A stretch of 29,589 nucleotides of DNA from a virus. Where the stretch lies: the IMG/VR virus record IMGVR_UViG_3300036760_000271, positions 1 to 29,589 of that record, one strand, 5' to 3'. Both the position numbers and the translations under genes were made by a program. Position 1 is the first letter of the stretch. Each line of letters starts with the position of its first letter. The notes beneath the pieces are model-generated. The model saw only the letters and a list, made by a program, of their open reading frames with translations, did no database searches and was not told the DNA's origin. Positions 27,641-29,085 of this stretch are shown in pieces.

Positions 27641-27748
27641 ATGCATAAATTAGCCTGTAGATTAGATAACTTTTTGTCGCACGCAGAGGGTAACCGGTAT
27701 TGGCTTCTACAGGAGCCATTGCAGCCGGTTGCCCTCTTTGTGTTGTAA
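27641..27748 (+). CDS. Possible 35-aa leader ORF before the initiator gene
   Basis: An ATG at 27641 opens MHKLACRLDNFLSHAEGNRY, followed by a Leu/Pro/Val-rich end, and stops with TAA at 27746-27748, 4 nt before the initiator ATG. The predicted transcript start coincides with its ATG. A 53-nt nested hairpin lies wholly inside it, so its translation would unfold that hairpin. A leader or coupling role is inferred; the ORF could also be fortuitous. Confidence 0.35.
   Translation: MHKLACRLDNFLSHAEGNRYWLLQEPLQPVALFVL
27685..27737 (+). promoter_or_regulatory. Nested RNA hairpin in the initiator leader
   Basis: AGAGGGTAACCGG (27685-27697) pairs with CCGGTTGCCCTCT (27725-27737) over 13 bp with one G-U wobble. 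Inside it TGGCTTC (27701-27707) pairs with GGAGCCA (27712-27718) around a TACA loop. The structure ends 15 nt before the initiator ATG. The following bases (TTGTGTTGTAAAT) are U-rich but interrupted, so it is not a standard terminator. Translational control, attenuation or an antitermination (put-like) RNA are possible. Confidence 0.6.
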
Positions 27749-27752
27749 ATAT

Positions 27753-28586
27753 ATGGTAGACAACCTACAAGTAGAAAATGGACATTTTACCAGGATTGTC
27801 AATCCTTTGATGGAAAACCTAGTAAAACTACCATTTAGGGGTAGCGAATTAGCAGTAGCAATTTATCTTATACGCAAAACCTATGGCTTCAATAAAACAG
27901 AGGATGAAATCAGTTTAAGCCAATTTCAAAAGGGTTTGGGCCGGTCAAAACAAACAATAGTTACTGCTCTAAAGAACTTACAACTAGTCAATATAGCTAT
28001 ACTAGTCAAACCTGGGACAAGCAAAAAACACAGTAATCTATGGAAAATAAACAAATACTATAAGACCTGGGAACTAGTCAAGATAGCTAGACTAGTCAAG
28101 AGTAAGCACGGAACTAGTCTAACGAAAGGCCCCCAACTAGTCAAGATAGCTAGACACACAAAAGACAATACAAAAGACAATATACAAAAGACACCTCCTA
28201 CAGGGGGTAGTGATATTCAAAAATTGGTTTTGGAATTCTACCGATTAAAGGGTTGGGTCTACAATGAGTCCACTAAAGCTGTTTTTGCGCGGCATGTTAA
28301 ACCAGCCAAAGATATACTTGAACTTTGTACTCTAGACCAAGCCATTGAAAAAGTAGGTAAACTAGCTCATTGGGCTGACGTTAAACAACTTGATTGGTCT
28401 CTAAATACGATACTTAGCAAATGGCACGACCTTCCCTATCTTGATGAACAGCTTGAAAACAGTAAAAAGGCCTTTATAGGTAAAGACCGAGCCTACCAAA
28501 AAGAAGGTAAGTGGTGGGTAATCTCAAACGGTGAGCACAAGCTTTATATGGGTAGTCCTAACGACGTACACTATGAAGCGACTTGA
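27753..28586 (+). CDS. Lambda O-type replication initiator
   Basis: The start is placed at ATG 27753 (MVDNLQVENGHFTRIVNPL), since the upstream TTG in frame lies inside the hairpin. The product is 277 aa. Residues ~8-76 match the phage replication protein O N-terminal winged helix: ENG-FTRI, then FRGSELAVAIYLIRKTYG, KTEDEISLSQF, GRSKQTIVTALKNL. That domain binds origin repeats. Residues ~77-147 form a low-complexity linker with repeated LV(K/N)IA peptides, encoded by the DNA repeats described separately. Residues ~150-277 form a helical C-terminal domain (VLEFYRLKG, LDQAIEKVGKLAHWAD, LDWSLNTILSKWHD) plausibly contacting a helicase or loader. The next gene overlaps by 14 nt. The role is well supported by the N-terminal motif and by the internal origin-like DNA. 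Confidence 0.82.
   Translation: MVDNLQVENGHFTRIVNPLMENLVKLPFRGSELAVAIYLIRKTYGFNKTEDEISLSQFQKGLGRSKQTIVTALKNLQLVNIAILVKPGTSKKHSNLWKINKYYKTWELVKIARLVKSKHGTSLTKGPQLVKIARHTKDNTKDNIQKTPPTGGSDIQKLVLEFYRLKGWVYNESTKAVFARHVKPAKDILELCTLDQAIEKVGKLAHWADVKQLDWSLNTILSKWHDLPYLDEQLENSKKAFIGKDRAYQKEGKWWVISNGEHKLYMGSPNDVHYEAT
27983..28143 (+). repeat. Iteron-like repeats within the initiator gene
   Basis: ACTAGTC(A) occurs at 27983, 28001, 28073, 28091, 28113 and 28136. Two pairs are spaced exactly 18 nt (27983/28001 and 28073/28091), with AGCTA-containing palindromic cores between (TATAGCTATA at 27992-28001; GATAGCTAGA at 28082-28091). The copy at 28136 also carries AAGATAGCTAGAC. Initiator-binding iterons inside the O coding sequence are the hallmark of lambda-type origins. 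Confidence 0.72.
28159..28193 (+). repeat. A-rich direct repeats, candidate unwinding element
   Basis: CAAAAGACA occurs three times (28159-28167, 28171-28179, 28185-28193) in a purine-strand-biased AT-rich stretch directly after the last iteron-like copy. In lambda the AT-rich unwinding region also flanks the O-protein sites. The repeats encode TKDNTKDNIQKT, a hydrophilic linker without obvious structural constraint. Confidence 0.6.
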
Positions 28587-29085
28587 TAAACTTAAAGAAG
28601 AACTTTTTGAACGCAACGCAGAACGCCCAGAATCTCATCTTGAAAAGTGGGTGAAAAGATTTTTAATTGAGTGGGGATTCTATGATTATATTCCTGAACA
28701 CCAAGTAGATTTTTATTTTATTGATGTAGCGTTTGTCAATCAAAAAATCGCCCTGGAACTTGATGGCAAGGAATTTCATAAAGACAAAGAGCGCGATAAT
28801 AAAAAAGATGACTACTTAAAAAATAAAGGCTGGCAAGTTATTCGTATTCCATCAAATGAATGTTGGAATCCGCGTATTCTAGCTAGACATTTATTCGATT
28901 TAGGTAGGTTGCTTTATGGAGATTATTGGCGACCAAGCTGGGGACTTGCTGAAGTGCTAGGAATTGAAGATATGATGGTTTTAAGGCGGCCCGTTCGCTA
29001 TTGGTGCGAAAGCTGCCAAGAGGTGATTAGTGAATCCCAGTTTGATAAACACATTGAACATAGTCCGCCACCGACGCTTATATGA
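28573..29085 (+). CDS. PD-(D/E)XK (DUF559-like) nuclease with C2H2 zinc finger
   Basis: The start is placed at ATG 28573 (MKRLDKLKEELFERNAERPE), overlapping the initiator gene by 14 nt; the product is 170 aa. Core motifs: E24 in the first helix, D46/D51 in VDFYFIDVAF, E62-x-D64 in ALELDGKEFH (62-69 region), and a later GWQVIRIPSNE strand, matching the VSR/DUF559 branch of the PD-(D/E)XK superfamily. Residues 145-163 form C145-x2-C148-x11-H160-x2-H163, a C2H2 finger that could give DNA specificity. The position right after the initiator, where lambda has the helicase loader P, suggests a replication, nicking or recombination-linked activity. Activity and substrate are inferred. Confidence 0.75.
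   Translation: MKRLDKLKEELFERNAERPESHLEKWVKRFLIEWGFYDYIPEHQVDFYFIDVAFVNQKIALELDGKEFHKDKERDNKKDDYLKNKGWQVIRIPSNECWNPRILARHLFDLGRLLYGDYWRPSWGLAEVLGIEDMMVLRRPVRYWCESCQEVISESQFDKHIEHSPPPTLI

Follow-up and report, generated by a model that had tools for sequence, protein, structure and literature searches.

Putative lambda-type replication origin within the O-type initiator gene of an uncultivated phage, and an A-rich word apparently shared by its family

A short array of repeats in the viral DNA analysed here, IMG/VR record IMGVR_UViG_3300036760_000271, the whole 29,589-nucleotide stretch of which is called the window, touches the question of how the initiator of a lambda-type origin recognises the strand that has been opened and keeps hold of it. 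An earlier note on this DNA had likened six ACTAGTC elements, followed by three direct repeats inside a diverged O-type initiator gene, to the origin of phage lambda. On supercoiled DNA, lambda O protein bound to the iterons opens an adjacent A+T-rich region of 40 bp, and both O and P contact the open DNA unwinding element, or DUE (PMC5043065); according to a 2024 review, the O-iteron complex is without a known structure (PMC10797057). The anatomy of the window suggests, with a probability of roughly 90%, that theta replication of the phage starts in this segment, at a lambda-type origin composed of O-bound iterons and an A-rich unwinding element.

The initiator gene and its iterons

The features of the locus are as follows.

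27753..28586, + strand: O-type replication initiator gene (277 aa; PF04492, O-like PHROGs, AlphaFold2 model)
27983..28007, + strand: distal pair of iterons in the winged-helix coding region (ACTAGTC starts at 27983 and 28001, a distance of 18 nt)
28073..28155, + strand: proximal iteron array (units with ACTAGTC at their start at 28073, 28091, 28113 and 28136; spacing 18, 22 and 23 nt)
28158..28193, + strand: proposed DNA unwinding element (three ACAAAAGACA, at 28158, 28170 and 28184, with intervals of 12 and 14 nt)
27679..27743, + strand: strong hairpin just ahead of the O start codon (-46.6 kcal/mol, z = -6.35), outside the origin claim

The assignment of the gene to the O type is borne out by a match of residues 7-106 to PF04492 (Phage_rep_O; E = 2.9e-12, 47.4 bits against a cut-off of 28.7) and by matches to the O-like replication initiation families phrog_678 and phrog_277; the signature RKTYGFNK is also present. 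A PDB sequence search with the initiator yielded no relative, and a Foldseek search with its model yielded only generic winged helices (E > 0.001). The AlphaFold2 model predicts a winged-helix domain (approximately residues 9-118), a disordered linker (residues 119-152) and a C-terminal helical part, with block-mean pLDDT of approximately 88-97 for residues 11-110 dropping to 44-58 over residues 111-150. The location of the array in the low-complexity middle of the protein, as the earlier note had it, therefore holds only in part: the A-rich block is the code of the disordered linker, and the proximal array spans the code of the last helix and the linker, but the confidently folded winged-helix domain includes residues 77-85, encoded by the distal pair, as well as residues 107-115, encoded by the first proximal unit.

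The hairpin ends 9 nt before the O start codon and matches nothing in Rfam; comparably strong ones stand ahead of O in the contigs L218, L004 and L234, and z is below -3 at this place in 11 of 71 O genes tested. Where a helicase or loader might stand, O is followed by a gene (28576-29085) for an MTES_1575/DUF559 endonuclease-like protein and, 1 kb later, by the end of the window. All structural genes are on the - strand (1-27313), divergent from O, and relatives of the terminase with 54-61% identity occur in about a dozen uncultivated viral contigs. Kinship through structural genes was not informative: none of the 14 contigs with terminase relatives has an O gene bearing these repeats.

The six ACTAGTC copies, including two pairs exactly 18 nt apart, are confirmed on the + strand, and none occurs elsewhere on that strand of the window. 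The four proximal units form the array that adjoins the A-rich repeats; the distal pair stands apart. Dyad symmetry of the form CTAGTC-N10-GACTAG is perfect at 28074-28095, with a single mismatch in the copy at 27984-28005; in the units at 28113 and 28136 the right side is degenerate. The last binding unit (28136-28155) is followed by 2 nt and then by the first of the three exact copies of ACAAAAGACA, which is found nowhere else in the window, so the direct repeats reported immediately behind the iterons are also as described. Dinucleotide shuffles of the whole window reached the ACTAGTC count in 5 of 100 cases, a weak excess. Synonymous codon shuffles that kept the protein and the codon set of the gene gave six ACTAGTC in none of 20000 cases, six ACTAGT in 88 and three ACAAAAGACA in 33, and this null is conservative because the codon set that was kept is the one that the repeats created.

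These repeats might in principle exist at the protein level, as selected LVK(I)AR and TKDN peptides in a low-complexity linker, with the DNA repeats following from codon usage. Most copies share one frame (TKDN or TKDT), the linker is disordered, the coding sequence runs on through the A-rich repeats, and TKD-type linkers may have some role in the protein. The failure of the synonymous shuffles to reproduce the repeats argues against such an origin, as do the ACTAGT copy at 28113 and the third ACAAAAGACA copy at 28184, each of which is in a different reading frame from the others of its kind.

The closest homologue of the initiator, L298 (viral contig IMGVR 3300009285_001633), is 67% identical in the matched N-terminal segment (tblastn) and 46% identical over the alignment. 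By the earlier note, its reading would fall if homologues kept the peptide and scrambled the repeat, and the comparison with L298 did not refute it. L298 retains all six ACTAGT at offsets of 18/72/18/22/23, identical to those of the window and including the fifth copy in another frame, whereas the seventh base, C in the window, is T or A at all six copies. With six cores kept and a seventh base that drifts, conservation covers ACTAGT and does not extend to ACTAGTC; NAA follows the core in most copies. The A-rich block is also retained, with copies spaced 15/15 nt rather than 12/14 nt and all in one frame, so that the frame of the third copy differs from that in the window. The iterons of a Gracilibacteria contig whose initiator is among the nearest (L218) likewise contain ACTAGT, as ACTAGT(T/A)AA. 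Iterons with CTAGT or ACTAGT in other contexts are found in L301, L310 and the O genes of Acinetobacter (e.g. L519 and L523).

Comparison with lambda and related origins

The proposed likeness to lambda ori (NC_001416) extends to the level of single bases. In both, the origin, a proposed one in the window, is inside the O gene with several iterons in mid-gene, four of which are spaced at 20/24/23 nt in lambda and 18/22/23 nt in the window; lambda iteron 4 ends at position 919 of L217 and ACAAAAGACA begins at 922, the same 2-nt junction as in the window; and the A+T-rich region of lambda, with ACAAAAGACACTATTACAAAAGAAA at its start, likewise contains ACAAAAGACA repeats. In contrast, the lambda iteron (ATCCCTCAAAACGAGGGA) is unrelated to that of the window, which has three exact ACAAAAGACA copies, an extra distal pair, and a nuclease gene instead of the adjacent P gene. 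In the gene 18 origin of P22 and its HK544/HK97-type relatives, iterons are again followed by an A-rich word (ACACAAAAGACAATATACAAAAGACAATAA, two copies in two frames), but the iterons are different and a DnaB-type helicase gene comes next. No match to the exact 20-mer of the window's iteron was found in viral_contigs. The iteron is new and, as the earlier note said, unlike lambda's; possession of its own iteron by each O lineage is normal for the family.

The lambda-type reading has good support in the anatomy of the locus, whose unit spacing and 2-nt junction match those of lambda, and by this anatomy the locus is judged to be a lambda-type origin with its own, newly found iteron in an uncultivated phage. 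Dimers of O would bind the ACTAGT-based iterons within their own gene through the N-terminal winged-helix domain, forming an O-some that, together with negative supercoiling, would open the adjoining A-rich block (28158-28193). The ACAAAAGACA repeats of the coding strand would be the conserved signal of the unwinding element, most likely caught as single strand by O, and the captured strand would allow a phage or host helicase to be loaded.

Alternatively, the ACTAGT repeats might serve as operators through which O regulates itself, or as partition or incompatibility sites, rather than as parts of an origin. Their position inside the initiator gene would suit such a function, and in lambda the iterons of O in trans contribute to inhibition phenotypes (PMC3349717). 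The junction of the array at a fixed distance to a conserved A-rich block, which is the layout of the origin in lambda, makes this very unlikely. The GC skew changes at approximately 28 kb, coincident with the switch in gene orientation; because the record is a 29.6-kb fragment and skew follows gene orientation, it was set aside as evidence of an origin, and the phage genome may have another origin elsewhere.

The A-rich block was also considered as a unique minimum of duplex stability, and this was rejected. Its AT content is only moderate (64%), and a 50-bp window over it ranks at approximately the 4% least stable, compared with approximately 2% where such a window covers the distal iteron or the domain-linker junction.

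An A-rich word common to O genes

The first hint that the A-rich block is widespread came from two distant initiators, L004 and L005 (approximately 36% and 32% identical), which have nearly the same A-rich DNA block in different frames, behind iterons that are wholly different, L005 encoding the same DNA block as HKRQYTKDNIQKT. A scan for three copies of AAAAGACA also matched mostly O genes. A second set of O genes was assembled by N-terminal protein alignment only (peptide pattern KTYG[WFY]NK), so as to keep the DNA motif out of the selection; it comprised 160 genes, with 71 representatives less than 60% identical to one another.

The word CAAWAGAMA is present in 70 of the 71 representatives, the coding strand bearing 164 copies and the opposite strand one, whereas synonymous shuffles of the same genes gave 22.2 copies (maximum 35) in 19.5 genes (maximum 29). 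At least two copies within 30 nt were found in 58 genes, compared with 1.7 (maximum 5) in shuffles, and an unsupervised de novo count placed ACAAAAGA, CAAAAGAC and AAAAGACA at the top of the enriched 8-mers. The 83 neighbouring pairs are spaced 13, 14 or 15 nt apart in 16, 20 and 36 cases, respectively (72 of 83 in total), and in 44 of them the spacing is not a multiple of 3. An upstream repeat was detectable in 61 O genes; its unit generally stops no more than 9 nt from the motif, and the commonest spacing is 23-24 nt or multiples thereof. The O gene of the window belongs to this pattern, with three coding-strand copies in the linker.

The linker copies are distributed over the three frames as 113/35/15 (113 of 163 share one frame), with TKDN, QKTT and HKRH among the peptides encoded, and more than one frame is used in 32 of the 51 multi-copy genes. 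Together with the encoding of the same block by L005 and the confinement of the motif to one strand, this mixture of frames renders selection on peptides an extremely improbable cause of the repeats. As judged by these comparisons, the ACAAAAGACA block is family-wide and conserved as DNA regardless of frame.

The genome contigs with these O genes have titles that name Patescibacteria, Planctomycetota, Omnitrophota, Zixibacteria, Ignavibacteria, Bacteroidetes, Nitrospinae and Proteobacteria, although phage contigs may be wrongly placed in metagenome bins. Variant forms of the word are ACAAAAGAAA (e.g. Bacteroidetes bins) and CAATAGACA (e.g. Parcubacteria, WWE3 and Nitrospinae bins). The word is present in the named phages lambda, P22, HK544, mEpX1 and 4A7, and Morganella phage IME1369_01 has ACAAAAGAAA. 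No description of it was found in the open-access literature. Whereas the earlier note held the repeat block to be secondary, the CAAAAGACA block is, on this evidence, the deeply conserved part of the origin: the iterons are new in the window, yet every O lineage has its own, and it is the A-rich word that is constant. It is apparently a universal, undescribed DNA-opening signal of lambda-type initiator genes.

The A-rich repeat might be a generic, easily melted tract in which only A-richness and strand asymmetry matter, in keeping with general theory of the DUE. O proteins bind single-stranded DNA, as reported without a comparison of sequence specificity, and iteron binding was unchanged when the AT-rich region was swapped (PMC7466680). 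However, a word of 9-10 nt with its internal G and C is kept, two or three times at 13-15 nt, in 70 of 71 distant genes, including those of GC-rich hosts; composition alone is insufficient to fix such a recurrence of word and spacing. An unrelated phage initiator family, described below, does not share the word. A generic tract seems somewhat unlikely.

Candidate readers of the word

An unrelated family of phage initiators (e.g. L097 and L118), which surfaced in the AAAAGACA scan, has CAAWAGAMA in 5 of 28 genes, compared with 3.7 expected. A general phage or host signal was rejected for this reason: the word is not enriched across that family and occurs in a few close lineages only. In such close lineages (L378, L384 and L390), AAAAGACA repeats occur in mixed frames after the N-terminal domain, ten copies in the case of L384; other members of this family share ACAAACAATAATG-type words instead.

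Within the O family, relatives with the altered signature KT[RKTA]GW have CAAWAGAMA in only 1 of 16 representatives, 11 of which keep ACACACAA at the junction. The word is also lacking in named phages whose signatures are altered (those of Acinetobacter and Pasteurella, Pseudomonas MPK9, Caldibacillus CBP1 and Bacillus SDFMU_Pfc). The same rule of signature and motif applies to most PF04492 members that an HMM detected in whole genomes, but not to L553, in which RKTYGYNR is present and the motif absent; in the opposite direction, L529 combines KTRGWYK with the motif. In the KT[RKTA]GW clade (L473-L552), the ACACACAA junction after the iterons is accompanied by other A-rich words (AATAAATA, CACTATCA and AAACAACT), which are possibly a second DUE code.

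The repeat might be read not by O but by a host or shared replisome factor such as SSB, primase or DnaB, since it must be where the helicase loads, and P, DnaC and DnaB also bind single-stranded DNA (PMC5043065). The gene after O encodes a DnaB-type helicase domain in 29 of 57 cases, an IstB/DnaC-type protein in 9 of 57 and a TOPRIM protein in approximately five; because this gene varies, recognition of the word by one particular loader is unlikely. The word is kept across hosts of many phyla and with different helicase or loader partners, is absent from the other phage initiator family and is altered in the KT[RKTA]GW clade of O, all of which makes a replisome factor a distinctly doubtful reader.

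The distribution instead points to O itself as the probable reader, although common ancestry could give the same pattern, and the association of KTYGxNK with the motif is confounded by shared ancestry. That O reads ACAAAAGACA by sequence is, in our estimate, an evenly balanced proposition, and we infer that the KTYGxNK region may take part in the reading. Even odds would likewise be given to the broader proposal that two or three copies of ACAAAAGACA at 13-15 nt beside the last iteron are a universal, sequence-specific unwinding code of KTYGxNK-type O proteins, read as single strand by an invariant part of O.

Such a code would have parallels in the DnaA-trio and 13-mer DUE of oriC and in the single-strand motifs of RctB or Rep, which are also short repeated single-strand signals beside initiator boxes, with the duplex sites and the open DUE both contacted by the initiator (PMC10797057); these systems differ in sequence and in initiator fold, and the O family shares one word. 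If the proposal is true, the ACAAAAGACA code, unchanging beside freely varying iterons, would be the counterpart in phages of the DnaA-trio. Reviews see the lambda DUE as an A+T-rich tract, and the DUE repeats of lambda and plasmids as differing between replicons in length, spacing and sequence (PMC10797057); to this view the present data add a word shared across the O family. The presence of a constant word in lambda, P22 and phages of many phyla would make the strand-capture step testable by point changes in lambda, and would allow O-type origins to be located to the base from sequence.
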